Shown here one piece after another: positions 37,301 to 64,000 of a stretch of DNA of 64,000 nucleotides (positions are counted from its first letter, which is position 1; every line of letters starts with the position of its first letter). Source of the DNA: a virus; IMG/VR virus record IMGVR_UViG_3300031963_000066, positions 20,668 to 84,667 of that record; one strand, 5' to 3'. The position numbers were made by a program, and so were the translations under genes. The notes beneath the pieces are model-generated. The model made no database searches. It saw only the letters and a program-made list of their open reading frames with translations, and had not been told where the DNA came from.

Positions 37301-39190
37301 TCTTAACCAAGTATTTGCTTGTGTTGTATTGTCATTCAGTGTTTTTGCAGCAGTCAGTGATGCAGCTTTTGTGCCATCAGTAGTTGATATTGAATCACTA
37401 AGTTGTTGTTCGGTAATAATTCTGTAGTATGAAGCCGATTGAAAACTATCCACATCATTAATATCAAAATAATTTCCTGCTTCATTCCAACGAATTGCTG
37501 CATTTGCGGCCGCAGTTCCGGATGTTCCATCGACTGTTCTATAAACATTGAAAGATGATGTTTGATTTCTTGATGCTTGACTTAATGTGAATTCGTTTGA
37601 ATTGAATACTGTTCGTCCATTGATAACAAAATTGCCAGCAACACTGAAATCTTCATTTACCTGTAAGCTCTTAACTGTTGCTTCAGCATTTTCGGCATCA
37701 ATTAAATTCGAAATGCGTACATTTGGTGTCCAAACATCAGTGTTTGCTCTTATTGTGTTTGCTCTTACTGTGTCGGTTGCCCAAACATTTGCTGTATTGA
37801 CACGGGAATTTGCTTGCAACCTATCGGTAAATGTGATACCATACACAGACAATGTGCCAGTATTGGCTGATGTGTTAGCTTCAAGTCTATCTGTAAATGT
37901 GGTATTATAAACCGACAATGTATCGGTGTTTGCCGATGTATTGGCTTGAAGTCTGTTGGTGAAGGTTGTACCAGTAACAGAAGCTGTTGTTGTGTTAGTT
38001 GATACGTTAGCTTGCACAACATTGGCATACATTGTCCAAACTACGGATGCATTAGATGTATTGGATGATGTATTAGCTTGTAACACATTAGTAAAAGAAG
38101 TTCCTGTTACTGATAATGTTGTAGTATTTGCTGATGTATTTGCTTGCAATTCATTCGTGTGTGTGGTGCCAGATACAAAAGCTGTTGCAGTTGTTGTAAA
38201 TGTATTTGCTTGCAATACATCTGTAAATGTAGTACCAGTGACAGAAGCTGTTGTTGTATTGGTTGACACATTAGCTTGCACTACATTAGCATATAGTGTA
38301 TGCATAACCGATGCATTAGATGTATTGGTTGATGAGTTGGCTTGCACTACATTTGCATACAGTGTGTGCATAACCGATGCATTGGAAGTATTAGATGATG
38401 TATTTGCTTGCAATACATCTGTAAATGTGGTACCAGTAACAGAAGCTGTCGTTGTGTTTGTAGATATGTTTGCTTGTACTACATTTGCCCACAAGGTGTG
38501 TATAACGGATGCATTGGCTGTATTGGTAGATGTGTTAGCTTGTAATACATTTACCCAAGCTGTGCCACTTACACCAACAGATGTTGTGGTAACATGTGTA
38601 TTGGCCTGAATAGTTGCAGTAAGAATACTTGTGTTTGCTTGCACATCATTAGTAAACACTTTGTTGTTTGCAGAAAGTGTACCTGTCAATACACTGGTAT
38701 TTGATTGTATTCTGTTTGTATAAAGTGAATTATATATTGAAGCATTAGAAGTGTTAACAGAATTGTTTGATTGCAATGTTTCTGTAAATGTTCCACCTAC
38801 TACAGAAATGCTTCCACCAAACAATGAGTTATTTGCAACTCTTAGTGCTGTGTCTGATCCTAAAACGTTTAATACATTACCAACATTGGCTGTTCCTGTT
38901 GTTGCAAGACTTAGATTTCCATTTGAAAAGTAACCTTGCCCTTCCACATTCAAATTGTTTTGAATGATTGCAGAAGAACCAATACCTTGCACTGAAAATG
39001 TCTTTTGAACAATAACATTTCCGTTTGATTGTAATGCTGTCTGTGAATTTTCTGAAAGGAATAATGTTCCAGAATCTTTGACATAATTTTCTTTGGCAAG
39101 AATGTTGTTTTCGGTAACCAGATTGTTGGTTGCAACCATCCAATCACCAAATGTATTGGCATAACTTAATGAGGATACTGTATTAGCCAT
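34310..39190 (-). CDS. Giant modular tail fibre
   Basis: This 1626-residue protein starts with an N-terminal attachment region (1-140). Residues about 140-480 are a run of 22-residue repeats of the type 'QANTSSNTSNASVMHTLYANVV', a likely beta-structured shaft. Then 'VNEDFSVAGNFVINGRTVFN' (about 511-530), Ala/Asn shaft repeats (about 635-705) and a T7-fibre-like module ('LSYTGDGSTTQYT...VRVYINGVRQLESEYTL') follow. A stretch of 'AGSAGNATYAGSAGYAG' repeats precedes a unique C-terminal domain of about 230 residues rich in Trp, Tyr and Gly, the presumed receptor-binding tip. It lies directly after the 72-residue protein (1-base gap) with an AAGG ribosome site. It is a candidate long tail fibre. 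Confidence 0.85.
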   Translation of the reverse strand: MANTVSSLSYANTFGDWMVATNNLVTENNILAKENYVKDSGTLFLSENSQTALQSNGNVIVQKTFSVQGIGSSAIIQNNLNVEGQGYFSNGNLSLATTGTANVGNVLNVLGSDTALRVANNSLFGGSISVVGGTFTETLQSNNSVNTSNASIYNSLYTNRIQSNTSVLTGTLSANNKVFTNDVQANTSILTATIQANTHVTTTSVGVSGTAWVNVLQANTSTNTANASVIHTLWANVVQANISTNTTTASVTGTTFTDVLQANTSSNTSNASVMHTLYANVVQANSSTNTSNASVMHTLYANVVQANVSTNTTTASVTGTTFTDVLQANTFTTTATAFVSGTTHTNELQANTSANTTTLSVTGTSFTNVLQANTSSNTSNASVVWTMYANVVQANVSTNTTTASVTGTTFTNRLQANTSANTDTLSVYNTTFTDRLEANTSANTGTLSVYGITFTDRLQANSRVNTANVWATDTVRANTIRANTDVWTPNVRISNLIDAENAEATVKSLQVNEDFSVAGNFVINGRTVFNSNEFTLSQASRNQTSSFNVYRTVDGTSGTAAANAAIRWNEAGNYFDINDVDSFQSASYYRIITEQQLSDSISTTDGTKAASLTAAKTLNDNTTQANTWLRSRSDSASLYANGAFRTANSASLYANGAFGAANSASSYANSAFASANNVAPQIAPAFAQANAAFGKANAATAEIKGTRGSISPTSASLTLTSNNGIAIHSVTANTLAISTSQDLQTTASPSFTGLTVTGTPLSTSSGGTGSTSAASAFNTLVAAATGTASGTSGYVLATGGTGNFYWTAAGAGGAGTQPGTRITSNRLSYTGDGSTTQYTTPTFSQANQVRVYINGVRQLESEYTLNSGTSKVTMTVAPVNNDKILIEVDGYAVYEYFANNIVYGPATGALTTGTIQSAIDGLESGKMPKTGGTFTGQVIGQTIDKATANTSLATGSYVHNLANSNWTFSHSITGNAGTVTNGLYSTGSYANPAWLTSLNADKLSGGTISSTILGNSSHFIGTTSIALNRATGFQRLTGVNINGIADSANNLISTAGDLGYTVSGQDVSYVGHLGPQVQSQGAGAAAMSFHRPGLYAINFGLGTDNQLRTGGWSRGGASYVILDSGNYNSYAPTLTGTGASGNWNITSAFATNSTYANNITMGFNSNWNTDFSHAPAGSTVLRGDTSSGSSTGGPGGSWWFQQNMRHTNASNLWGVQVAWGWEDNANLLRTRNIQNGNYGGWVTYINSTNIGSQSVSYATSAGSATSAGYATSAGNSTTVAGLNVHANRNNEANKIVRTDASGYLQTGYINSSNGDENNASNPPRVWGTNGSDSYLRSYQTGSLSVGYAGSAGNATYAGSAGYAGNAGYASSAGNAGYATTAGSASNVTQGTAYFTYAESFGMGSVGGVTYTSTGAGGGGWNTVQYLNIPSAGWWNITEPDMFYRGQRLNSSMWASGTTYLWLVVEVLVDNVWRLIKLTTQNYDTVNYMPADGSVYYAARPFQTYGPYGYWHWSNEDTTWAALGSQKTPYYLAAGNNVRVTMKFANDYFRAGTHFMTEANAASGRGYYMDSVLGWRNDGTNPSATNKHVYKIGPDVNNEWRAYANGGPAGYWYAGGSVRFMAYKVGT
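34990..35160 (-). repeat. Low-complexity Ala/Gly/Ser/Tyr repeat near the fibre tip
   Basis: Short repeats encode AGxA(G/S)YAG-type peptides. On the plus strand the unit 'ccagcatttccagcac/atatc' recurs many times. A similar shorter run lies at about 35370-35430 ('agcacttgtagcataacc'). They form a flexible or polyglycine-like neck before the C-terminal tip and are prone to length change by slippage. Confidence 0.75.
37750..38773 (-). repeat. Array of 66-bp (22-residue) coding repeats in the giant fibre
   Basis: About fourteen in-frame repeats of 22 residues. Two subtypes alternate, one with 'ASV.HTLYANVVQAN' and one with 'ASVTGTTFTDVLQAN'. Some neighbours are nearly identical at DNA level, for example around 38050-38420. 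The regular spacing superficially resembles a CRISPR array, but the repeats are coding and have no unique spacers. Confidence 0.88.
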
Positions 39191-47230: not shown

Positions 47231-49037
47231 ACTGATATGTGACTGCAACATAAGTATTTGCAAGATCATTATTAAAACTGAAGTATCTTAAATAGGTTGT
47301 TTTTGTTGCACCTAAATTGAAATCAATTGCACCAATTGTAGAATTTATTGCTGTGCATCCATGTGTAATTATTCTTTGTTGTCCTGATGTGTTGGTAATA
47401 ATCAAATCAACAAATTTTCCTGGTACAAAAGAACTTAAAGTCACTGTTAAATCGTCCGCAATATTTGCTTTCACCATACCGGAATTGGAAAAGGTGATTG
47501 TGATTGCTGTTTGTAAACTTGAAAATATATTTGGTGTTCTTATTGTATTGGCTGCATACAGTGGTCCCGTTACTGTTAATGTACCCGGTACTGTTAAATT
47601 TGCATCAACTACAATTGTTGATGTATTTTGTAATGCACTTGCTGCATTTGTGAAGGCTGCTTGTGCAATCGGTTCAATAATATCTAAACGACCTGCTTGT
47701 GTGGCAGCCAAAGATTGTGCAGAATTGGCTTTTGTGAATGCACCGTTGGCATACAACGATGCAGAGTTGGCTGCACCAAACGCACCGTTAGCGTATAGAC
47801 CACCAGAATTGGCTGTTGTGTATGCATTGTTGGAATTTATGAATGCACCGTTTGCAAATACACCAGCAGAATTAGCTGAACCAAACGCACCGTTGGCATA
47901 TAATGCAGCTGAGGTTGCCACATTTGCTGCTGTAAATGCACCATTCGCATACAACGATGCAGAATTTGCGGCACCAAATGCTGCATTAGCATAAACACCT
48001 ACTGTATTGGATGAATTAAATGCAGCATTTGCCTGTGGCCATACTTGGTTATTAGATTGATTAAAGACTGTATTAGCTTGTATGAATGCTGCATTGGCAT
48101 ACAATGAACCAGAATTTGCGGTACCAAACGCAGCATTCGCCTGTGGCCATACTTGGTTATTTGAACGACTGAATACTGCATTTGCTTGTATGAATGCACC
48201 GTTGGCATATAATGATGCAGAATTGGCTGCACCAAATCCACTGTTTGCATAAGAACTGGCTGAATTAGATGCTTCAAAAGCACCGTTAGCATATAGACTT
48301 GCGGAATTAGATGCTTCAAAAGCACCGTTAGCATATAGACTTGCGGAATTAGATGCAGCAAAAGCACCGTTAGCATACAGAGCAGCTGAGTTTGCTACAC
48401 CAAAACTAGAATTTGCTCTCACAAATGCACTGTTTGCAAATGGACCAGTTGATTCTGTGGAAGTATTCTGTGATGAACCATCTGCAAACTTCAATGGTTT
48501 TGCAACCAAGTTCACACCATCTGTTGATATCTTTACTTGAACTTTGTTTGACTCTGGACCACCTGCGATGATATTGACTGTTCTACCTGCGGTTGTTGTA
48601 CCTATGATTAGGTTACCACCAGTGCCTGTAGCAGTGTTACCTTGTACATACAAGTAACCATCTAGTGGCAATACAGAAGTGTATGTTGCATCTGTATCGG
48701 TTGAACCTGCCAAACCCAAATCAATATAGTTTCTTTCATCTGTACCTGTGTCAGCAGTAATAACATAGTCAGCCGAGCCGTCAGATGTTCTATTCTGTAA
48801 GTTTGTTTGTAGATATGATGAACTGTTACCAATAAACTGTGCAATAACATTTGGAAGAATGATTGCGTTGTTACCAACATTCAGTGCTGTATTAGAATAT
48901 AAACTTTCGGCCAAAGTTCTAGCAGTGAATTTACTGGTGACACTGGTTGAATTATCAATACCAACCAAGATTGTATTGGATGTGTTACTATCTAAGTGTG
49001 TTAGATTTGGTAATTGCGAAATTTTTACTGTTGACAT
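47229..49037 (-). CDS. Repeat fibre-like protein between gp7 and gp8
   Basis: This 602-residue protein starts with 'VKISQLPNLTHLDSNTSNTILVGIDNSTSVTSKFTARTLAESLY', a start module typical of baseplate-attached phage proteins. A beta module follows ('RNYIDLGLAGSTDTDATYTSVLPLDGYLYVQGN.....GNLIIGT'). Residues about 195-470 are Ala/Asn 14-residue shaft repeats. The C-terminal beta domain ('AITITFSNSGMVKANIADDLTVTLSSFVPGKFVDLIITNTSGQQRIITHGC') is seen in other aquatic phage fibres. T4 has no gene between 7 and 8, so this is an accessory insertion; it may be a short fibre mounted on the wedge. It has a GGGG ribosome site. Confidence 0.75.
   Translation of the reverse strand: MSTVKISQLPNLTHLDSNTSNTILVGIDNSTSVTSKFTARTLAESLYSNTALNVGNNAIILPNVIAQFIGNSSSYLQTNLQNRTSDGSADYVITADTGTDERNYIDLGLAGSTDTDATYTSVLPLDGYLYVQGNTATGTGGNLIIGTTTAGRTVNIIAGGPESNKVQVKISTDGVNLVAKPLKFADGSSQNTSTESTGPFANSAFVRANSSFGVANSAALYANGAFAASNSASLYANGAFEASNSASLYANGAFEASNSASSYANSGFGAANSASLYANGAFIQANAVFSRSNNQVWPQANAAFGTANSGSLYANAAFIQANTVFNQSNNQVWPQANAAFNSSNTVGVYANAAFGAANSASLYANGAFTAANVATSAALYANGAFGSANSAGVFANGAFINSNNAYTTANSGGLYANGAFGAANSASLYANGAFTKANSAQSLAATQAGRLDIIEPIAQAAFTNAASALQNTSTIVVDANLTVPGTLTVTGPLYAANTIRTPNIFSSLQTAITITFSNSGMVKANIADDLTVTLSSFVPGKFVDLIITNTSGQQRIITHGCTAINSTIGAIDFNLGATKTTYLRYFSFNNDLANTYVAVTYQ
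48267..48350 (-). repeat. Perfect 42-bp tandem duplication in the gp7-gp8 fibre gene
   Basis: Bases 48267-48308 and 48309-48350 are identical, and a third, slightly diverged copy follows. Each unit encodes one 14-residue shaft repeat (ASLYANGAFEASNS type). This is a recent in-frame expansion. Confidence 0.9.
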
Positions 49038-54663: not shown

Positions 54664-54739
54664 AAAAGTAAATGCGCTTTTTGGAATCTGAGTTCTGTCG
54701 GAGAAAATTCTTGGGCCGGAATGAGAAATTTCGAAATTT
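54664..54739 (-). repeat. 76-bp non-coding repeated element, copy B
   Basis: The second copy of the element at 32641-32716 (64 of 76 identical, no gaps). It fills the gap between the gp5 stop codon (sharing one base) and gp25. It contains a perfect 14-base palindrome AAATTTCGAAATTT at one end; copy A keeps only its TTCGAA centre. The transcript-strand AAAAG-(8)-CTTTT arms are also present. Confidence 0.9.
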
Positions 54740-55695
54740 TAATCTCCAATGAATACTGTACCTGAACCAGTTTCGATAACATTGGTGCCTGGTGGATTAC
54801 TATCAAAGTGACTGCCAGTACCATCATCACCAGTATCTGCCGTGTCTCCAATTCTTGCAGCACCCATCGTACCATGATTCATATTAATAGTGCTACCATT
54901 CATAACTATATCTCCAGCCACATTTAAGGTATAGTTACCATCAACCTTTTCCTGTACATTTCCCTTGACATATAGGTTTGCATTGCCATCCACCGTAATA
55001 TTACAAACACCTTTGATGTGTACATTATTGTCAGAAAGATAAACTTCATAGTTGTCTCCAACCACTTTGGTAACCTTTGACCCGTCAGGTGCAATCTCAA
55101 AGAATGTGTTGGCCTTATGGTGTAGGTGTATCCTCTCAGCACCAGGTGTGTCATCCAACTCAAATACATGCCCTGCTTCAGTCTGTGTCACTCGGTTGTA
55201 TGGGATTTTTGCATCATATTGTGATTCTGGCTCACTCCAGGTACCACCACTAGCCGTAGGCACACTGGTATCTAGGTTATTATTGTGGTAACCAATTGCA
55301 GTTTCTTCAATTTTTTCATTTCTGTGTAGTCTGCTACTAGTAGGTTCACCTAGTGGATAAAATGAACCTTCTGAGAAACCTTTAGATGTGTTTGGTCCAT
55401 TTTTTGGTATGCCTGGAAATATACCAATAATGACAGGTGCTTGACTAGATTCACCATCAGTGAAGAAACCAAACGCATAGTCACCTTCCAGAGGTGCACC
55501 GTCAGTCATTGACACATTAGGTGGTAGGCACGGTAACGCCCAAGATAGACCATCCGTAGGCAATTCTTCAAGGTTGTCTGTGTGGTGACCGAACATACGG
55601 ACACGCACCCGGCCTAATCCTAATGGGTCGAATCTATCTTCAACGACACCTAACCACCAATGAAAACCATCTTTACCAATAAAATTGTTCATCAT
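54739..55695 (-). CDS. gp5: gp5-type baseplate hub spike without lysozyme domain
   Basis: This 318-residue protein begins with an OB-fold ('GKDGFHWWLGVVEDRFDPLGLGRVRVRMFGHHTD', '...DGLSWALPCLPP', 'DYAFGFFTDGESSQAPVIIGIFPGIP', residues 1-95). It then has a linker and a VgrG/gp5-like C-terminal beta-helix ('HLHHKANTFFEIAPDGSKVTKVVGDNYEVYLSDNNVHIKGVCNITVDGNANLYVKGNVQEKVDGNYTLNVAGDIVMNG', about 190-265). T4 gp5 (575 residues) carries a lysozyme domain between these parts, and none is present here. It overlaps the gp27-like gene by 4 bases. It forms the membrane-piercing spike with the gp27-like hub. Confidence 0.93.
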   Translation of the reverse strand: MMNNFIGKDGFHWWLGVVEDRFDPLGLGRVRVRMFGHHTDNLEELPTDGLSWALPCLPPNVSMTDGAPLEGDYAFGFFTDGESSQAPVIIGIFPGIPKNGPNTSKGFSEGSFYPLGEPTSSRLHRNEKIEETAIGYHNNNLDTSVPTASGGTWSEPESQYDAKIPYNRVTQTEAGHVFELDDTPGAERIHLHHKANTFFEIAPDGSKVTKVVGDNYEVYLSDNNVHIKGVCNITVDGNANLYVKGNVQEKVDGNYTLNVAGDIVMNGSTINMNHGTMGAARIGDTADTGDDGTGSHFDSNPPGTNVIETGSGTVFIGD

Positions 55696-57065
55696 GTTGT
55701 AATCGCCTGTCTAACACTCTTGTCTGAATTATTTGCACCTTCTTGTGCTTTTGGTAAGCTTTCTTTGGCCACTTCCAAAATTGTCTGATATGCAGTTTGC
55801 TTAATAATGTGTCGTACCGCAGTGACAAGGTACTTACCTGAATACGTTTTATCCAGTTCTTTTGTATTGTTTGTTGGTTTTAGTGTGAAAAGGTTGAATT
55901 CAACTACTTTACCTGCTGTCAACCCCGAATCACCGGGTACAACCATCTTTAGTGCCGTGAAGTTTGCAAGTGAAATTGCAGCAGTTCTAAGTGGTAAGAT
56001 TGTTTCAATGAAAATGTCTTTTGCAAAACCACCTTCTTTTTCTTTGATATAAGGTACATTTCCGTGGTTTGCATTACCTGTTGCAACCTTCAGTACACCT
56101 TCTGGTGATTGATTCAAAGCTTTATCAAAACGATTCTTCAATTCATTCAAAATACTACCAGGATTCAATTTTTCCATCGTGTTTTTCATCTTGTTATAAT
56201 CAAAATCGGTCACATTGAAAGACCTTGTTAGTGGGTCGATAGATATCAATCTGTTTGCAAACGAACCGGATGTAATCTCTTGGAGTGCATCATATGTTTT
56301 GGAAAATTCATATTCAATCACATTGAATGCTTTTTCTTGTAAGTCTTGTTTCTTGTTATCCAAATTCATCGGTTCATACTTATATGTCGCATAAACTTCA
56401 TCTTTGTACATGGATTGTAGAGACCTGAAGTTAAAACCTTCTTTTGTTTCAAAAAACAACATATCCGCCGTACTGTTTTGTTTCTTTGGCCTTGCATATG
56501 TTGATACCCAACTAATGGCTTCAAATGGTTTCAACCTTGGAACAACAAAGTCATAAACACCAGTTGTTTCTTCAATTACATTGATGTTTTTTGGTTTGAC
56601 CTTCAGTTTTTCCACCAATACATCCTGCACAATTTCAGAAATTTTTTGGCCAGAATATGATTTACTTATTTTTGTCTGTTCTGAGAGCATCAATTCTTCT
56701 GAACAAAAATATAATTTGTATATTTCGGAGTTGTAATTGCCGCCAGGTTTTCTATCACCAATCTTATACACCCTAAAAATCTGGTCGTTTCCATTGGGAC
56801 CATTTTTTATTTTACTAAAATTTACTTCAAGATATTCATTGCCTGATAACTGTAGAAGTTCAATGAAACCTTGTGCATCAACCAATGTCACATAACCGGA
56901 AGCTGCAAATGTGTAGATATCTTCATAATATGAAAACTCCAACATTATTTTTTTAAGTTCTATTCTGTTACCACTCGATGTTAAAAAATTGAGTGTTTTT
57001 AAAGAATAGTCTTGCGGTGAATATGCACCAGAAGCTTCAACTGGAGTAAAATTATTTGTGTCCAT
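55692..57065 (-). CDS. gp27-like baseplate hub protein
   Basis: This 457-residue protein is encoded directly upstream of the gp5 spike, with ATGA overlap, as expected for the hub protein that adapts the threefold spike to the sixfold tube (T4 gp27, 391 residues). The start 'LKTLNFLTSSGNRIELKKIMLEFSYYEDIYTFAASGYVTLVDAQGFIELLQLSGNEYLEVNFSK' and the end 'DKTYSGKYLVTAVRHIIKQTAYQTILEVAKESLP' are typical of hub proteins of marine T4-like phages and of the Mu gp44 fold. Sequence similarity to T4 gp27 itself is not obvious by eye. Confidence 0.82.
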   Translation of the reverse strand: MDTNNFTPVEASGAYSPQDYSLKTLNFLTSSGNRIELKKIMLEFSYYEDIYTFAASGYVTLVDAQGFIELLQLSGNEYLEVNFSKIKNGPNGNDQIFRVYKIGDRKPGGNYNSEIYKLYFCSEELMLSEQTKISKSYSGQKISEIVQDVLVEKLKVKPKNINVIEETTGVYDFVVPRLKPFEAISWVSTYARPKKQNSTADMLFFETKEGFNFRSLQSMYKDEVYATYKYEPMNLDNKKQDLQEKAFNVIEYEFSKTYDALQEITSGSFANRLISIDPLTRSFNVTDFDYNKMKNTMEKLNPGSILNELKNRFDKALNQSPEGVLKVATGNANHGNVPYIKEKEGGFAKDIFIETILPLRTAAISLANFTALKMVVPGDSGLTAGKVVEFNLFTLKPTNNTKELDKTYSGKYLVTAVRHIIKQTAYQTILEVAKESLPKAQEGANNSDKSVRQAITT

Positions 57066-57067
57066 AA

Positions 57068-57727
57068 TTAACTCATCAAGTCTTGAAATTCTTTTTCTAA
57101 TTGGTCAACATATTTTGAATTCAATATGTTAATGTTTCTCTTAGATTCATTTAAATCGAGTTCATAATCATAATTAGTCACTGCTGTTGGTTGTATGGTG
57201 ATATCCAGATAACTCATTGAATTGGCTGTTGACGAAGCACCATTTGCATATAAGTCGGAAGGAAGCTTAAATGTTCTAAGTTCGTCAATGCCAAAGGGGT
57301 GTGAGTATAGTAAACTCACATATTCGTCAGGAGAAATGATGAATTTTTCTATTACTGTTTGGTCATCATCTGTACCACGGGTGGTTTTTGTGATAACTTT
57401 TTCGTAATGATGTAAATCAGTCAAAGTATTACCATATTTTTCATTCACATACTCATTGAATTGTAATGAAGAAAGTGGCCAATCCCATTGTGGATCCAAC
57501 ATTTTGTTTGCAAACAATACTATCCAATAACGATATGGATCATCATAGTACTTGTGTGCAACAATTTCTGGTGTATCACCTTCTTGTACATCATATTTGT
57601 AGTATACCATTGGATTCTTCAAAACTTCTGGCATAATACTAACTCTAGCCATAAGATTTGTCATAATGGTAGAAACACCATTATTATTTGTGTGAATTAT
57701 TTTTGGAAGTGTATCAAAATATTGCAT
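57068..57727 (-). CDS. gp53: gp53 baseplate wedge protein
   Basis: Start chosen at the ATG at 57727 ('MQYFDTLPKIIH'), just after the gp48 stop and with AGGA 11 bases upstream. The longer reading from 57739 would place its ATG inside that ribosome site. The product is 219 residues (T4: 196). Family pattern: 'NLMARVSIMPEVLKNPMVYYKYDVQEGDTPEIVAHKYYDDPYRYWIVLFANKMLDPQWDWPLSSLQFNEYVNEKYG', which includes a LysM-like segment. gp53 links wedges around the hub. Confidence 0.93.
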   Translation of the reverse strand: MQYFDTLPKIIHTNNNGVSTIMTNLMARVSIMPEVLKNPMVYYKYDVQEGDTPEIVAHKYYDDPYRYWIVLFANKMLDPQWDWPLSSLQFNEYVNEKYGNTLTDLHHYEKVITKTTRGTDDDQTVIEKFIISPDEYVSLLYSHPFGIDELRTFKLPSDLYANGASSTANSMSYLDITIQPTAVTNYDYELDLNESKRNINILNSKYVDQLEKEFQDLMS

Positions 57728-57728
57728 T

Positions 57729-58727
57729 TCAATAACCATCCTTTTCTATTTTTTCTCTGTCTATCAATTCTATTTCCTTGAAACTAATCGACATTGTAGT
57801 CTGAACAGGTGAACCATCTGTGTGTGAAGACCATCCGTTTGGTGCATAGTTCACATCAATATTTTCGATGACACATTCGGCAACTTTACCAATGTTTTTA
57901 TTTTCTTCACCATTAAAGAAAAATTCCAAATTAAATGTTGATGGTGGTATAAAAAACATACCAGCAGCACCAGTAACAATCCTTGGTGCAGCATGTGTTT
58001 TAAACATCTTTACAATATTTTTTACTGTAGTTGCCTCATCTTTTGAGAATGGTGTAAAAGTAAAAGACATTTGAAATGTTCTAAAATCTATACCATCAAA
58101 CAATAATTGTTGTTGTGGATTGAGTGCAAGCCCTTGTGTAGCTAAACCTAATTTTGCAGCATTTGTTTGTGCTTTTGCTATAGCGCCTGCAGCCACGCCT
58201 GCGGCAAAATTAATTGGTCTAAAACCTTTTGCTTCTTTACTGTGTAATGATTCCAATACACTTGATGCAACCTCAAGTAAACTTGTTTGGTTGTATGAAG
58301 CGGCATTGGTAAATTCTAATGTATCTGGCATATACAAATTTATTCCGGCTATAAGCCTTGTTTTTCTTTGCGTAAATGCTATTTTTGTTTGTTCTGAAAC
58401 AGCTCCAACGGCACTAATTGATTTTTCGACAAAATCATTACCTTTAAATCCTTCTATTGCTGCATTTCCAATATCTGTTGCGCTATTTGCCACACCCTTA
58501 AAAATTTCAGAAAAACCATATGATTGTCCTTTTTCATATCCAACAGGTTGAACTTCATTGATTCGGAATTGAACCACATGATTTCTTGTTGCAGATTGTA
58601 AATCTCTTGGATAAGATAAAATCTCTACATTGTTTTTATTACCAAACAATTTACCCAAAGGACCTTTAAGTGCAGCTCCAGGAATTGATACGCCACCGAT
58701 TGATGTTGGGATTGAAATTATTGCCAT
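57729..58727 (-). CDS. gp48: gp48 baseplate tail-tube cap/initiator protein
   Basis: This 332-residue protein (T4 gp48: 364) starts tail tube polymerisation together with gp54. Conserved parts include the N-terminal 'EILSYPRDLQSATRNHVVQFRINEV', the tube-like domain 'LLFDGIDFRTFQMSFTFTPFSKDEATTVKNIVKMFKTHAAPRI', and the end 'PSTFNLEFFFNGEENKNIGKVAECVIENIDVNYAPNGWSSHTDGSPVQTTMSISFKEIELIDREKIEKDGY'. It is the first gene of the leftward late unit, with a CATAAATA box 29 bases upstream. Its stop lies 2 bases from the gp53 start. Confidence 0.9.
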   Translation of the reverse strand: MAIISIPTSIGGVSIPGAALKGPLGKLFGNKNNVEILSYPRDLQSATRNHVVQFRINEVQPVGYEKGQSYGFSEIFKGVANSATDIGNAAIEGFKGNDFVEKSISAVGAVSEQTKIAFTQRKTRLIAGINLYMPDTLEFTNAASYNQTSLLEVASSVLESLHSKEAKGFRPINFAAGVAAGAIAKAQTNAAKLGLATQGLALNPQQQLLFDGIDFRTFQMSFTFTPFSKDEATTVKNIVKMFKTHAAPRIVTGAAGMFFIPPSTFNLEFFFNGEENKNIGKVAECVIENIDVNYAPNGWSSHTDGSPVQTTMSISFKEIELIDREKIEKDGY

Positions 58728-58755
58728 GGTCTTTTCTAAAAAGATTGATATATGT

Positions 58756-58763
58756 TATTTATG
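58756..58763 (-). promoter_or_regulatory. Late-promoter-like box (CATAAATA) before gp48
   Basis: A 7 of 8 match to TATAAATA, 29 bases before the gp48 ATG in a true intergenic region. Confidence 0.55.
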
Positions 58764-58812
58764 TTGAATACGGAAACTTAGATGCAATGTTATTCATTAA
58801 ATTTGGTTCCTT

Positions 58813-58820
58813 TATAAATA
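58813..58820 (+). promoter_or_regulatory. T4-type late promoter (TATAAATA), rightward
   Basis: An exact TATAAATA on the plus strand, 22 bases before the ATG at 58843, followed by an AAAGGAG ribosome site. It is the only evident promoter for the rightward hub genes. Confidence 0.7.
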
Positions 58821-58842
58821 AAATATAAAGGAGTATAAATTT

Positions 58843-59484
58843 ATGATTTGTAAAATTTGTCACAAAAAAAACGATAACATTAGAAAATTGTCGAAACATA
58901 TACGAGATTATCATAAAGATATTACTATAAAAGAATATTATGATGTTTATATAAAGACAAAAACTGAAGGACAGTGTGTTATTTGTGCAAATGCAACAAA
59001 ATATTCAAATTTAGGCTCAGGTTACAGTAAAACTTGTTCAACATCTTGTAGTGCTAAATTATTTCGATTCAATTTAAAATCAAATGAAGAAAGGTATGAC
59101 AAATTTAAACAAAAAATAAGTGATAATATGATAAAAGAATGGAAAAAAAGAGAAAAAACCGGTAAAAAAGATGAAATAATAGAAAAGGCCAAAAAAACTA
59201 AAAAAGAAACAATAGAAAATATGTCTTATGAAGAAAAAATACAAAAATTTGGTTGGATTAATAAATTGAGTGAATCCGAAAAACAAAAATTCATTCAAAA
59301 AAATTATTGGGAAACTTTATATAAGTATTGGCAAGAAATTACTGATGAACAATTTATGAAAATAACAAAAAAAAGATTAAATACAATGTCTGAAAGACAA
59401 AAATCTGATTATGTTTATTTGATTACCGAAAAAGATAAAGAAATTATTGACAATAAATTAAAAGAACTACTTAACATAAAATGA
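58843..59484 (+). CDS. Double zinc-finger protein, probable homing-endonuclease relative
   Basis: This 213-residue, Lys-rich and strongly AT-rich protein has a C2H2-like finger (Cys3, Cys6, His19, His24: 'CKICHKK...LSKHIRDYH') and a second Cys4 site (Cys45, Cys48, Cys65, Cys69: 'CVICANATKYSNLGSGYSKTCSTSC'). This N-terminal pair is known from phage and large-virus homing endonucleases, in which a nuclease domain follows. Here the rest is a charged helical region with no obvious catalytic motif, so it may be a remnant, a divergent nuclease or a regulator. It overlaps gp4 by 4 bases (ATGA) and has a strong AAAGGAG site. It is the leading gene of the rightward unit. Confidence 0.75.
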   Translation: MICKICHKKNDNIRKLSKHIRDYHKDITIKEYYDVYIKTKTEGQCVICANATKYSNLGSGYSKTCSTSCSAKLFRFNLKSNEERYDKFKQKISDNMIKEWKKREKTGKKDEIIEKAKKTKKETIENMSYEEKIQKFGWINKLSESEKQKFIQKNYWETLYKYWQEITDEQFMKITKKRLNTMSERQKSDYVYLITEKDKEIIDNKLKELLNIK

Positions 59485-59918
59485 AATATTTGCAAGGAAA
59501 ATATATAGTTCGTCATCCAGAAAAATATTTAGGTGACCATTCTAATGTAATTTATAGGTCTTCCTGGGAATTAAAATTCTTATCTTGGTGTGATAACAAT
59601 GAAAATGTGGTTGGATTTGCTTCCGAAGAAATAATAATACCCTACAAATCACCAGTTGATGGTAAATATCATAGATATTTTGTAGATTGTCTTGTAAAAG
59701 TCAAAGATAAAAATGGTGTGATAAAGACACACCTAATAGAAATAAAACCCAAGAAACAAACCATGGAACCAGACAAAAAGAAAAGAGTCACAAAACAGTA
59801 CATACAAGAAGTCGTAACATGGGGTGTCAATCAGGCCAAATGGAAGGCTGCAACAGAATATTGCTTGGATCGTGGTTGGGAATTCAAACTTATAACGGAA
59901 GACCATCTCGGACTATAA
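59481..59918 (+). CDS. gp4: gp4 (gp50/65) head completion protein
   Basis: This 145-residue protein (T4: 150) matches the gp4 head completion family: 'GKYIVRHPEKYLGDHSNVIYRSSWELKFLSWCDNNENVVGFASEEIIIPYKSPVDGKYHRYFVDCLVKVKDKNG' and 'HLIEIKPKKQT'. It has a TnsA/PD-(D/E)xK-like arrangement with Glu30, Asp69 and Glu87-x-Lys89 as possible active-site residues. The protein acts late in head maturation before tail joining. Its start overlaps the zinc-finger gene by 4 bases. Confidence 0.95.
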   Translation: MKYLQGKYIVRHPEKYLGDHSNVIYRSSWELKFLSWCDNNENVVGFASEEIIIPYKSPVDGKYHRYFVDCLVKVKDKNGVIKTHLIEIKPKKQTMEPDKKKRVTKQYIQEVVTWGVNQAKWKAATEYCLDRGWEFKLITEDHLGL

Positions 59919-59929
59919 CTAAATATCCG

Positions 59930-60544
59930 ATGATAACAAAATCCATACTCACTACACTGACAGAAGAAAAAGTCTCGGCCAACCATCAAACGATGAGCCG
60001 AGAATCTATGACATGGTTATTAAAACGAATTGCAGATTTAAGAAACCCTGGCCGCCTGTCGATTCCTATAACTAAAGAAAAGTCACGATGGACACGTCCA
60101 ACTGATAGACAAAAGTTCTTGATGGGTGGTTTATACTACTTTGTATATGATCCTAAAGGCAAAAATGATTTACCATATTATGATAGGTTTCCACTGGTTT
60201 TGCCTCTAAAACGACAATCCGATGGTTTTATAGGGTTAAACATACACTATTTGCCACTTCGTTATAGATTAGTTTTTATGAAGAAGTTGGAGAATTTTGC
60301 AATTTACAATGATGAGGATGAGATTAAAAGAATTCGTATCACATATCCAATGTTAGATGCATCGTCTAGGTTAAAAGAATTCAAACCATGCATCAAACAT
60401 TATCTGTATAGCCACATTAAATCCAGAATATTGGCTGTTGAACCTAACGAATGGGATGTTGCAATGTACTTGCCTGTACATCAATTCAAGAAGGCACAAC
60501 CAAAAGAAGTCTGGAAAGACTCATTAGAAGAAATAAGGAACTAA
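59930..60544 (+). CDS. Conserved virion-associated protein of T4-like aquatic phages (gp2 position)
   Basis: Start chosen at the ATG at 59930, after the gp4 stop; the frame is open further upstream, but that would overlap gp4 by 100 bases. No clear ribosome site. The product is 204 residues with 'SRESMTWLLKRIADLRNPGRLSI', 'RQKFLMGGLYYFVYDPKGKNDLPYYDRFPLVLPLKRQSDGFIGLNIHYLPLRYRLVFMKKL' and 'LKEFKPCIKHYLYSHIKSRILAVEPNEWDVAMYLPVHQFKKA'. The family is conserved in cyanophage-like T4 relatives next to gp4. T4 has gp2 (DNA end protector) next to gp4, so a DNA-end or head-completion role is possible, but I cannot confirm homology to gp2. Confidence 0.8.
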   Translation: MITKSILTTLTEEKVSANHQTMSRESMTWLLKRIADLRNPGRLSIPITKEKSRWTRPTDRQKFLMGGLYYFVYDPKGKNDLPYYDRFPLVLPLKRQSDGFIGLNIHYLPLRYRLVFMKKLENFAIYNDEDEIKRIRITYPMLDASSRLKEFKPCIKHYLYSHIKSRILAVEPNEWDVAMYLPVHQFKKAQPKEVWKDSLEEIRN

Positions 60545-60545
60545 G

Positions 60546-61247
60546 ATGCCAGTTTCAATTAGCGGTTTTAAATCATCTTTCACCGGCGATTTGGCCAGAC
60601 CGAATCGTTTTGAGGTGGATGTTCCTATTCCTGTTACACTATTGGCTTATGTGAAAACCAATAGAAACCTGAAATATAGATGCGAGAACGCAAATCTACC
60701 AGGTAGAACTCTTGCAACAATCGAACAAAAGACCTATGGTCCTGTTGAAAAGTTTCCATATCAAAACACATACAGTGACATTGATTTGACATTTATTGTT
60801 GATGATGATATGTCACAAAAAGTATTCTTCGATGCATGGTTGAACTTTATCAACCCGTTGTACAACAATAATTTCAGATACAAGAGTGATTATTGTAGTG
60901 ATTTGACAATAACACAATATGATGTGACAAACCAACCATCATATTCTTGCAACTTGTATGAGGCATTTCCAATCGCAATAAACCAAATGGACCTAGATTG
61001 GTCTAATGATGGTTACCACAAACTGTCTGTGACATTTGCATATACTTACTGGAAGAACAATTCTCTCCAAGGCCTTGCCATGGAACTGTTGGACTCTCAG
61101 ATTGGAAATCTTACCGACAAATACGGTGGCCTTGGTGGTACTACCAAAGGTGCTGTCGGTGCAATTACTGATAGTGCCATCGGTGCCATCGGTTCGGGAA
61201 TTGATTCGATTGGAAAGAGTGCTGATAATATTAATGGATTTGTATAA
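60546..61247 (+). CDS. Tube-fold baseplate protein (gp54-like tail tube initiator)
   Basis: This 233-residue protein has the gp19 tube fold pattern: 'ISGFKSSFTGDLARPNRFEVDVPIPVTL', 'RCENANLPGRTLATIEQKTYGPVEKFPYQNTYSDIDLTFIVDDDMSQKVFFDAWLNFI', 'FPIAINQMDLDWSNDGYHKLSVTFAYTYW'. It has an added Gly/Ala-rich C-terminal tail (195-233). It is a paralogue of gp19 (4688-5230). T4 uses gp48 and gp54 to start the tube on the hub, and this gene lies beside gp26, so a gp54-like initiator is the best fit. It starts one base after the previous stop. Confidence 0.82.
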   Translation: MPVSISGFKSSFTGDLARPNRFEVDVPIPVTLLAYVKTNRNLKYRCENANLPGRTLATIEQKTYGPVEKFPYQNTYSDIDLTFIVDDDMSQKVFFDAWLNFINPLYNNNFRYKSDYCSDLTITQYDVTNQPSYSCNLYEAFPIAINQMDLDWSNDGYHKLSVTFAYTYWKNNSLQGLAMELLDSQIGNLTDKYGGLGGTTKGAVGAITDSAIGAIGSGIDSIGKSADNINGFV

Positions 61248-61263
61248 TTAAATTGGAGAAATT

Positions 61264-61989
61264 ATGGCTTTACCTAAACTTGATGTGCCAACATACGAAA
61301 TTGAATTACCAATTTCAAAGAAGAAAATTAAATATAGACCTTTTCTAGTTAAAGAACAAAAGAACTTGTTGATGGCTCTGGAATCAAATGAGTCCTCAAC
61401 GATTCAACAGAATGTCCGTGACATACTAAACAATTGTACCTTGACTGAAGGTATCAATATCGACAAATTGCCGATCATTGATGTTGAATATTACTTCATC
61501 AATCTAAGAAGTAAATCTGTTGGTGAAATTGTGGAGACCAGATACCGTTGTAATAATGAGGTTGAAGAAAAGGTTTGTGGTAACATTATGGAAGCAAGTG
61601 TTAACCTACAGAACATTCAACCATACCGTGAAGAAGAAGTTAGTCCAGAAATTCAATTGACTGACAAGGTTATGATTAAGATGAAGTATCCAGAATTTGG
61701 TATCATCAAAGATTCTATTAACATGGATGATATTACTGAGGTGACTTTCAACTTGATTTCAGAAAGCATTGAACACATTTATGATGGTGACCAATTCTAT
61801 TATGCACATGAGGCCGAACCAGGTGAAATGTTGGAGTTTGTTGAAGGTCTGAATCAGGCCCAATTTGAAAAGGTTGAACACTTCTTTAATAACTTACCAA
61901 AGTTAAAAGAAACTGTTGAGATGACTTGTAGTAAATGTGGTTTTCATCACACGATTGATGTAGAAGGTCTCGAAAATTTTTTCGGTTGA
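61264..61989 (+). CDS. gp26: gp26-family baseplate hub subunit
   Basis: This 241-residue protein (T4 gp26: 208) has the T4_baseplate (gp26/gp51) family opening 'VPTYEIELPISKKKIKYRPFLVKEQKNLLMALES' and 'YFFINLRSKSVGEIV'-type stretches. Two Cys pairs, Cys96/Cys105 and Cys222/Cys225 ('MTCSKCGFHH'), look like a zinc site. gp26 assists hub assembly. The final codons GAA AAT TTT TTC GGT TGA contain slippery heptamers, and the -1 frame continues as the next ORF, so a longer gp26 fusion may be made. GGAG precedes the ATG. Confidence 0.92.
   Translation: MALPKLDVPTYEIELPISKKKIKYRPFLVKEQKNLLMALESNESSTIQQNVRDILNNCTLTEGINIDKLPIIDVEYYFINLRSKSVGEIVETRYRCNNEVEEKVCGNIMEASVNLQNIQPYREEEVSPEIQLTDKVMIKMKYPEFGIIKDSINMDDITEVTFNLISESIEHIYDGDQFYYAHEAEPGEMLEFVEGLNQAQFEKVEHFFNNLPKLKETVEMTCSKCGFHHTIDVEGLENFFG
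61974..61983 (+). promoter_or_regulatory. Putative programmed -1 frameshift site
   Basis: In the gp26 reading frame the sequence is A AAT TTT TTC, containing two overlapping canonical X-XXY-YYZ heptamers (AAATTTT and TTTTTTC). The -1 frame has no stop from 61959 to the end of the 61-residue ORF at 62171. The gp26 stop comes 3 bases after the slip site. This arrangement is like the G/GT tail chaperones of lambda. Confidence 0.65.
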
Positions 61990-62171
61990 CGCTGCGTCAC
62001 GATAACTTGAGGAATTATTACAAAACTAATTTCTCTTTGATGCAGCATCACAAATACAGTTTGACAGAATTAGAAGCTATGTTGCCATGGGAAAGAGATA
62101 TCTATGTCTCTATGTTGATTCAGTATATTGAGGAAGAAAATCAAAAAATAAGAGAACGACAAAAGAGATAA
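61986..62171 (+). CDS. Small helical hub-assembly ORF in the -1 frame of gp26 (gp51 position)
   Basis: It has 61 codons if read from the TTG at 61986; the only other in-frame start is an ATG at 62041. Neither has a ribosome site. The protein ('LRNYYKTNFSLMQHHKYSLTELEAMLPWERDIYVSMLIQYIEEENQKIRERQKR') is helical. From memory it resembles short ORFs after gp26 in cyanophages, whose 'HHKWSLTELE.L.P.ERDIYV.ML' pattern recalls tail chaperone C-termini. It is probably expressed at least partly as a gp26 extension through frameshifting. It occupies the place of T4 gp51 but is far shorter. Confidence 0.7.
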   Translation: MTLRHDNLRNYYKTNFSLMQHHKYSLTELEAMLPWERDIYVSMLIQYIEEENQKIRERQKR

Positions 62172-63923
62172 ATGGCAAGAGACAACAGTAAGGATGTTAC
62201 TCATCAACAAACGATGAGTAAATTGTCCGAAAAATCAAAACAAACTTCAGCTTCATTGCTGAATTCCACCAAGGCCACACCTAAGGCTCTTGCGGATAGT
62301 GGCGACATGGATGGTGTTCTCGGTCAAATTTATCAGTTAATGGTTGATAATCGCAAAGATGAATTAGAACAAAGACAAATAGACGAAAAGAATAGTAAAA
62401 CCGATACCAGAAAAGAAGAAAGTCGCCATCAAGAATTGTTGAAGGCGTTAACGGTTCGTAGAAGACCAAAGCCTAAGAGGGTCATTCGCCGTGAGAAAAA
62501 GGCGGAAGAAAAAGAAGCAGCTAAACCAACTACACCGGCCAAAAAGCCAGCAGAAGCGGCCAAAAAGCCAGCTGAAGCGGCTAAGAAACCACCTGAGCCG
62601 GCTAAAAAGCCACCAGAACCAGCTAAGAAACCAGCAGAAGATACTGCTAAAAAGGCTGCCGAAGATAAAGCCAAGAAGGCTGCTGAAGATAAGGCTAAAA
62701 AAGAAGCTGAAGATAGAGCTAAAAAGGCTGCCGAAGATAAAGCCAAGAAGGCTGCTGAGGATAGAGCTAAAAAAGAAGCTGAAGATAAAGCCAAGAAGGC
62801 TGCTGAGGATAAGGCTAAACGAGAAGCTGAGGATAAGGCTAAAAAAGAAGCTGAGGATAGAGCCAAGAAGGCTGCTGAGGATAAGGCTAAAAAGTCTGCT
62901 GAACAGGTTAAACCACCTGAAGTTAAACCGCCACCAAAAGCTGAACAGGTTAAACCACCTGAAGTTAAACCGCCACCAAAAGCAGAAGCTGCACCTGCGG
63001 CACCAAAGCCAGCTCAAGTGAAGCCGCCGCCAAAAGCTGAACAAGTAAAACCTCCACCAAAAGCACCAACTACTAAAATTCCTCCAATTTCAGGTGGAAA
63101 AGGTGTAGTTATTGCTGCATTATTGGCTGCTGGGTTATCAGCAAAAGCTCAAGCAAATGTATTAGCACAAGTCGAAGCAGAATCAAATTTTGTTCCGAAA
63201 AGTGAAGATTTATACTATTCAGCCGATGGCTTGGCGAATACATGGCCAAATAGATTTGGCCAAAAAGGACCTGACGGTAAACTTTTAAAGGATAAAAATA
63301 ACAGAGTTTTACCAAATCAAATAGCGACAGATATAGCAAAAAATCCAGAAAAAATTGCTGAAGCTGTTTATGGAAAAAGAAAAGATTTGGGTAACACTGC
63401 TGACGGCGATGGTTTTAAGTATAGAGGACGAGGTTTTTTACAAATTACAGGAAAAGATGCATACAAATCTTTAGGTGATTATATTGGTGTAGATTTAGTA
63501 GGTGATCCAGATAAATTAAATGAAATTTCTGTTGCCGCAAAATCTATTCCTTGGTTCTTTTTAAAATATAAAGGATATCTGATTAAAAAACCACAAGATT
63601 TGGAAAATATAGGAACAGTTAGTAAAGCGGTTGGATTTCAAGATAAAAAATTAAAATCGGGTGAAATGGAATCAGAACATCGAGCAAAATTAGCTGAGAA
63701 ATATCAAGCTGAAGTTTCATCTACACCCGTGCCAAGTTCTGATACTGGTACCAAAGTTGACCAATCATCTAAAGAAAATGCAGACCTGAAAGAAAAGTTA
63801 AATAAAGATAAGTCGGCTCAAACAACGAACAATACCACTACGACAAACAACCAGACAAACAATGTTAAACCTGAACAAAAGGTTGACGATAGACCACCTT
63901 ATGCAAGAAAGCAACAACAATAA
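62172..63923 (+). CDS. GH19-type lysozyme with TolA-like helical linker (tail-associated)
   Basis: This 583-residue protein has a helical N-terminal region (1-110, 'GVLGQIYQLMVDNRKDELEQRQIDEKNSKTDTRKEESRHQELLKAL'). A Pro/Ala/Lys linker (111-153) is followed by about eleven copies of an 8-residue AKKAAEDK repeat (154-243), like the TolA helix, and a KPPPKAEQV proline-rich stretch (243-300). A GH19 lysozyme/chitinase domain (about 308-505) follows. Its likely catalytic residues are Glu337 (QVEAESNF) and Glu345 (KSEDLYYSADGLANTWPNRF); 'YRGRGFLQITGKDAYKSLGDYIG.DLVGDPD' is diagnostic. The Asn/Thr-rich tail is disordered. It directly follows the gp26 hub genes (TAA-ATG), so a tail-borne peptidoglycan hydrolase is more likely than a lysis endolysin. 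Confidence 0.87.
   Translation: MARDNSKDVTHQQTMSKLSEKSKQTSASLLNSTKATPKALADSGDMDGVLGQIYQLMVDNRKDELEQRQIDEKNSKTDTRKEESRHQELLKALTVRRRPKPKRVIRREKKAEEKEAAKPTTPAKKPAEAAKKPAEAAKKPPEPAKKPPEPAKKPAEDTAKKAAEDKAKKAAEDKAKKEAEDRAKKAAEDKAKKAAEDRAKKEAEDKAKKAAEDKAKREAEDKAKKEAEDRAKKAAEDKAKKSAEQVKPPEVKPPPKAEQVKPPEVKPPPKAEAAPAAPKPAQVKPPPKAEQVKPPPKAPTTKIPPISGGKGVVIAALLAAGLSAKAQANVLAQVEAESNFVPKSEDLYYSADGLANTWPNRFGQKGPDGKLLKDKNNRVLPNQIATDIAKNPEKIAEAVYGKRKDLGNTADGDGFKYRGRGFLQITGKDAYKSLGDYIGVDLVGDPDKLNEISVAAKSIPWFFLKYKGYLIKKPQDLENIGTVSKAVGFQDKKLKSGEMESEHRAKLAEKYQAEVSSTPVPSSDTGTKVDQSSKENADLKEKLNKDKSAQTTNNTTTTNNQTNNVKPEQKVDDRPPYARKQQQ
62643..62900 (+). repeat. 24-bp coding repeat array (AKKAAEDK octapeptides)
   Basis: About eleven in-frame copies of an 8-codon unit encoding AKK(A/E)AED(K/R). 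Alternating Lys and Glu at i and i+4 spacing would stabilise a single long alpha helix of roughly 90 residues. The DNA units are near-identical (gctgaggataaggctaaa type), allowing length change by slippage. Confidence 0.92.
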
Positions 63924-63924
63924 A

Positions 63925-64000
63925 ATGGCTACAGATAATAAAATGTCATATCAGATGGCTGCGAGGTTGAAAAATCAATCTCTTGGTTCCGTTATTGCTG
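63925..64000 (+). CDS. Start of an unidentified gene, cut by the window edge
   Basis: An ATG one base after the lysozyme stop opens a frame that runs to the window end: MATDNKMSYQMAARLKNQSLGSVIA. Twenty-five codons are too few to assign a family. Its place after gp26 and the lysozyme gene suggests another hub or tape-measure component. No ribosome site is visible beyond the end of the previous gene. Confidence 0.6.
   Translation, partial: MATDNKMSYQMAARLKNQSLGSVIA

Follow-up and report, generated by a model that had tools for sequence, protein, structure and literature searches.

Comparison of closely related T4-like phages strongly supports the apparent exchange of an enzyme cassette on a constant scaffold in a predicted peptidoglycan hydrolase that is encoded next to baseplate hub genes. 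We analyzed a window of 64,000 nt, the 3' end of an 84,667-base IMG/VR record of a T4-like phage. The 583-aa ORF X (62172..63923, plus strand, ATG start) encodes a putative virion-associated protein that combines a scaffold with a GH19 cassette. The DNA of the window is 98.995% identical to that of the contig L022 over positions 56172-63011 (about 6.86 kb), is unrelated to it over the following ~730 nt (63012-63740, the exchangeable cassette interval, on the plus strand), and matches it again, at 96.5% identity, over 63741-64000. Very probably, X is a hub or tail-interior virion hydrolase that replaces the gp5 lysozyme in its role, and its enzyme is a cassette that is exchanged on a retained scaffold.

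The X gene is located inside the tail/baseplate module. The baseplate genes near X on the minus strand are gp48, gp53, gp27-like, gp5, gp25 and gp6, the last two recognized by eye, whereas the plus strand carries gp4, a gene for a tube-like protein, gp26, gp51 and then X. The homologs of the baseplate hub protein gp26 (61264..61989; phrog_150, 5.9e-62; Pfam T4_baseplate, 1.2e-56) and of the baseplate hub assembly catalyst gp51 (61986..62171; phrog_634, 6.2e-29; TTG start) are both encoded on the plus strand, and the X ORF begins immediately past the gp51 stop codon, with no gap. The order gp26-gp51-X is kept in dozens of contigs, and gp26-gp51-X-Y in many. Y, a protein of about 460 aa, follows X in the relatives and is itself followed by an opposite-strand gene for a ssDNA-binding-like protein (by eye); in the window, 77 nt separate the 3' end of X from the end of the record. 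The gp27-like hub protein (phrog_350, 4.2e-85) is encoded at 55692..57065 on the minus strand. In T4, gp5 is a hub-linked lysozyme that opens murein during infection. The gp5 homolog of the window (54739..55695, minus strand, 318 aa) consists of the OB and trimerization domains only; no lysozyme domain was found between the two, so that the layout differs from that of T4, and the enzyme is in X.

The GH19 lysozyme domain spans residues 308-516 of X (63093..63719, plus strand). It matches the endolysin family phrog_181 (3.5e-37) and Pfam GH19 (2.4e-5, slightly short of the Pfam cut-off), and is similar to GH19 endolysins in the PDB both by sequence (8p8e, 1.9e-23; 9eoi, 1e-22) and by fold (8p8e, 2.3e-9, TMt 0.75). 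The nearest structures are the phage endolysins 8p8e, 9eoi and 4ok7, and also the T6SS effector TseP. In the AlphaFold model of X, which was built from 13 sequences and has a mean pLDDT of 62.5, residues 308-516 form a compact domain with pLDDT of about 77-92. The catalytic glutamates E337 and E345 (codons 63180-63182 and 63204-63206, plus strand) are invariant in an alignment of 13 GH19-bearing homologs, in full agreement with the initial annotation, where a GH19 domain with intact catalytic glutamates had been described. The sequence matches predict a peptidoglycan-cleaving enzyme.

Residues 98-308 of X are rich in A, E, K, P, D and Q and include a charged rod with a proline-rich spacer on either side. 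The rod (residues 156-240; 62637..62891, plus strand) consists of 10 octads of the AKKAAEDK type, ~85 residues or ~12.8 nm at 1.5 Å per residue, and is modeled by AlphaFold as a single long helix with pLDDT mostly at 74-84. Opposite charges are found in 50 of its 84 i/i+4 residue pairs, compared to a mean of 18 and a maximum of 32 in 2000 shuffles, and the rod is devoid of I, L, V, M, F, W and Y; this combination of opposite-charge pairs with the lack of large hydrophobic residues identifies the rod as a single alpha helix and not as a coiled coil. Given the TRF score of the tandem octad array (261-345) and the recurrence of the layout in relatives, chance is not a viable explanation. The single-helix repeat of ~90 residues proposed in the first reading is thus borne out, with the AlphaFold helix and the charge-pair and composition check in agreement. 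Its description as TolA-like does not hold beyond composition: the NCBIfam TolA model scores 17.2 bits, below the family cut-off of 213, and homology to TolA was rejected. Spacer 1 (residues 119-155; 62526..62636, plus strand), identified by TRF and composition, is rich in Pro, Ala and Lys and contains repeats of KKPAEAAKKPPEP. Spacer 2 (residues ~243-307; 62898..63092, plus strand), rich in Pro and Lys with repeats of KPPEVKPPPKAE, includes the 5' boundary of the exchanged region. Both the proline-rich spacers and the helical N-terminal domain that had been noticed from the sequence were recovered, the latter at low confidence.

The first 45 residues of X (62172..62306, plus strand) differ among lineages, with a Y-like N-terminus of ~110 aa present instead in L016 and L026. 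The adjacent predicted helix (residues 46-95; 62307..62456, plus strand; AlphaFold pLDDT about 50-63) contains a 44-residue motif, LGxIY...R[HN]xxLLxAL (residues 50-93), that was detected in 32 of 70 X proteins, in 31 of these at exactly 44 residues, and across different cassettes. The conservation of this motif is the sole argument for a putative hub-docking function of the helix; a search of isolated phages with the N-terminal domain of X yielded no match. The C-terminus (residues 524-583; 63741..63920, plus strand), KENADLKEKLNK...NNTTTT...VDDRPxxxRK, is common to different cassettes, and a short C-terminal motif, [DN]D[RKST][PSN], is present in 35 of the 70 X proteins (DDRP in the window). 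Both putative terminal anchors are modeled with low confidence, and disorder is predicted for the C-terminus as well as for the Pro-rich linkers. Stretches of at least 40 residues rich in A/E/K/P/D/Q were found in 37 of the 70 proteins, and other clades, too, have charged A/K/E/R rods or Pro-rich spacers. The X and Y proteins of L026 share 47% identity across the N-terminal 180 residues, so both may load in the same way. Paralogous N-termini of X and Y are encoded at L026:5704-8466 and L017:5662-8501. The sequences suggest that X and Y could have arisen when the gene for a tail-interior protein was duplicated and an enzyme was subsequently captured.

Seven cassette types are present among loci with 100% identical gp51 and near-identical scaffolds, namely, GH19-A (the window and L004-L006), GH19-B (L007), GH19-C (the L012 group), GH19-D (L018 and L029), a VgrG3-like muramidase (PF21277; L009, L010, L014 and L015), a SLT transglycosylase (PF01464; L030), and the lysozyme-like cassette E (L022 and L023). 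The four GH19 cassettes are distantly related to one another, and BLASTP detected no link of the VgrG3-like, SLT and E cassettes to the GH19 cassettes or to each other. The contig L003 shows no differences from the window at 62935-64000 (1066 nt), and from the point equivalent to 63741 downstream, it matches L022 at 99.8% over 4904 nt. Cassettes that are 70-84% alike reside on unrelated scaffolds. Cassettes can be more similar to each other than are their surroundings: cassette E at 84% vs gp26 at 46% (L022-L098), the VgrG3 cassette at 84% vs gp26 at 71% (L009-L065), and the SLT cassette at 72% vs gp26 at 55% (L030-L088); between L009 and L014, the cassette is at 99% vs 77% for Y. Swaps were observed in other clades as well, in the pairs L045/L046 (GH19 vs SLT, with flanks mostly 86-92% identical), L094/L106 and L107/L117. 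Across the 70 X proteins, Pfam identified GH19 in 20, phage tail lysozyme in 8, phage lysozyme in 7, VgrG3-like in 6, SLT in 6, M23 in 3, and other domains, with the domain names including Phage_lysozyme2, Phage_lysozyme, SLT_3 and Transglycosylas. The cassettes of L018, L022 and L030 start with a signal peptide-like hydrophobic stretch, some with a terminal AxA (in L030, KKIGPAAIAGLGIAGLLMPTDAVASA), perhaps a relic of secreted enzymes.

Cassette E (L022:6847-7560) has 273 matching stretches in IMG/VR. In a separate scan for E-domain loci, 60 of 79 start at most 400 nt from gp51. The other 19 comprise 5'-cut contigs, many of which encode C-termini like that of X, one protein in the Y slot, and tape-measure-like proteins, mostly of 811-1296 aa; no evident stand-alone endolysin gene was found among the 79 loci. 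Being almost exclusively gp51-adjacent or contained in tape-measure-like proteins, E behaves as a dedicated tail enzyme. The model of its fold (pLDDT 68) ranked lytic transglycosylases and lambda lysozyme high, none significantly (best PDB match, E 0.55), and the cassette has no Pfam match.

Low-complexity repeats in metagenome contigs can be misassembled, all the close relatives are metagenome contigs, and the 5' junctions of the cassettes lie in or near the Pro-rich repeat, which raises the concern that the cassette differences are assembly chimeras. We consider this to be hardly plausible because both flanks match one phage, the 3' junction is in non-repetitive sequence, each allele recurs on independent contigs from different metagenomes (the E allele on L023, that of the window on L002/L011 and L003), and the same pattern is seen in other clades. 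A different alternative is that X is an ordinary lysis endolysin, expressed late, released via a holin, and merely located beside baseplate genes. GH19 is a common endolysin domain, and phrog_181 as well as most of the matches of X in isolated phages are annotated as endolysins; domain shuffling, too, is known in endolysins (PMC10684548). This alternative nevertheless appears unlikely, given the findings on the cyanophage S-CREM2, where the gene order is gp206 (gp26)-gp207 (gp51-like)-gp208 (X; GH19, 3.1e-13)-gp209 (Y; phage lysozyme). Mass spectrometry of purified S-CREM2 virions detected 73 unique peptides of gp208 and 71 of gp209 (PMC10665884, Table 3), although the authors of that work suggested capsid packaging as an option for their 'endolysins', which counts against a place in the hub. 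The links between the much longer S-CREM2 X (1565 aa) and X of the window are limited to their common slot, the presence of GH19 in both, and short similarity at the N-terminus; generally, in Kyanoviridae, the slot after gp26-gp51 is occupied by one or two long proteins, with hydrolase domains in most.

The ordinary-endolysin interpretation is further weakened by the presence of a separate Hydrolase_2 gene (PF07486), one per record, in six of the six records of relatives that were examined. The L022 copy matches lysis-endolysin PHROGs and has a signal peptide-like start, and L003, which carries the allele of the window, likely has such a gene as well, with the end of the contig encoding its apparent end (by eye). 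A PF07486 endolysin was sought in the window's own record, which stops 77 nt past X, and was not found. By eye, the N-terminus of X shows no signal peptide or SAR start; its neighbors are gp51 and Y; its rod is long, its conserved ends are of the hub type, and domain E occurs in tail-type proteins. Taken together, the same-slot virion protein, the lysozyme-less gp5 and the separate Hydrolase_2 make an entry enzyme accompanied by a distinct endolysin the better interpretation. The assignment of X to the virion, originally argued from its position beside gp26, stands as a well-supported prediction, now drawing on the conserved gene order, the S-CREM2 protein, the lack of a lysozyme in gp5, and the endolysin-like gene in the relatives. 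It is distinctly unlikely that X is instead a tape-measure protein with a built-in lysozyme, the length of which sets that of the tail. Tape measures with lytic domains have precedents, among them the GH23-bearing ones of enterococcal phages (PMC10194240), none besides X was recognized in the window, and in S-CREM2, where the tail is 418 nm long, X and Y reach 1565 and 1456 aa, respectively. However, among the near-identical phages of the close clade, X varies between 481 and 649 aa, with 0 (L030) to 14 (L014) octads in the rod, whereas Y is steady at 453-461 aa (the L022 Y is listed at 482 aa owing to an upstream start choice). Such variation of a ruler would be expected to result in mixed tail lengths; the rod thus seems to be a tolerant spacer, and X is unlikely to be the ruler. 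Y, with its hydrophobic segments and constant length, would be a better candidate. In S-CREM2, gp208 and gp209 (L135:4984-14055) are ~1500 aa each, and X in the other cyanophages examined is 623-1167 aa long; either gp208 or gp209 may be the missing tape measure.

As a virion hydrolase, X would take the wall-cutting role that is held by the lysozyme domain of gp5 in T4. The N-terminal docking helix and/or the C-terminal peptide would fix X in the hub/tube assembly, the rod and the Pro-rich spacers would carry the enzyme off the hub, and the enzyme would cut murein locally after sheath contraction. As the comparison of the loci shows, the enzyme of ~200 residues is replaced by unrelated hydrolases within one phage population while the scaffold and the neighboring genes stay; presumably, the repetitive 5' flank and the conserved 3' flank are where homologous recombination takes place. 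Of the layout read initially, the tethering of the enzyme through a rigid spacer is supported, and its reach across the periplasm and the anchoring of the N-terminus in the hub are putative.

Several known systems resemble X in part. Like T4 gp5, X is putatively a murein enzyme linked to the baseplate hub; in T4, however, the lysozyme is inside gp5, whereas here the enzyme belongs to other families and resides in a protein distinct from gp5. Wall-lytic domains are also found at the baseplate hub of A-1(L), where gp15 contains lysozyme, endoglucanase and peptidase domains (PMC10966104), but these are parts of the hub barrel protein, in contrast to the separate rod protein described here. Evolved VgrG and T6SS muramidase effectors (VgrG3, PDB 4noo; TseP, PDB 8xcl) share the contractile-injection hardware and the hydrolase families, but are competition effectors with immunity proteins, unlike the role proposed for X. 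Endolysins of different phages have recently exchanged catalytic domains (PMC10684548), but these are lysis enzymes, whereas here the exchange occurs within a hub-linked scaffold that is constant at both ends. The post-gp51 'endolysins' of Kyanoviridae (S-CREM2 gp208/gp209, S-PM2 p209/p210, and those of ACG-2014e and S-H68) occupy the same slot as X and mostly possess hydrolase domains, but unlike X, they are mostly far longer, Gly/Ala-rich and tape-measure-like, sometimes with several enzyme domains, and no A/E/K/P-rich rod was detected in the four that were tested. One of these, S-PM2 p209 (L049:9886-13389), combines an ADP-ribosyltransferase-like N-terminal domain (PF01129, 1.3e-5) with a phage tail lysozyme domain. 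The claim of a new architecture that was made initially is therefore only partly upheld: in Kyanoviridae, the annotation 'endolysin' has already been given to a lysozyme-bearing virion protein at this position, whereas the rod with an exchangeable cassette is undescribed in the open-licence literature searched, in which we found no constant, rod-bearing, hub-linked scaffold with the enzyme replaced within one population. Tail lysins, hub enzymes, tape-measure lysins and endolysin shuffling are all known, and the cassette swap was absent from the first reading.

The classic example of an exchangeable phage component is the receptor-binding protein. The swap of an enzyme amid ~99% identical surroundings suggests selection on murein breaching itself, with host wall chemistry, lysozyme inhibitors and superinfection exclusion as candidate causes. 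Because one scaffold naturally carries a series of alternative hub-linked enzymes, these causes are directly testable, and the locus points to a possible entry-enzyme site in aquatic T4-like phages with a lysozyme-less gp5. More tentatively, the gp51-adjacent slot of environmental T4-like phages could be a dedicated, tail-fiber-like exchange site driven by enzyme-specific periplasmic inhibitors of resident phages or hosts, with the rod and the C-terminus serving as homology arms. Inhibitor-driven selection for cassette change is speculative; the precedent is T4 Spackle, an inhibitor of the lysozyme in gp5 that has no appreciable effect on the endolysin (PMC7677548).

Two further features of the window were observed. 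The large minus-strand tail/structural ORFs contain long tandem repeats with periods of 18-264 nt, at 37968-38552, 48018-48406 and 35046-35423. Between gp48 and gp4, there is an extra ORF (58843-59484, MICKICHKKND..., zinc-finger/HNH-like by eye). The segment 58764-59618 is common to the window and L022, whereas the alignments to L015, L010, L030, L007 and L004 stop at 58763 and restart at 59619, a possible case of homing endonuclease insertion.
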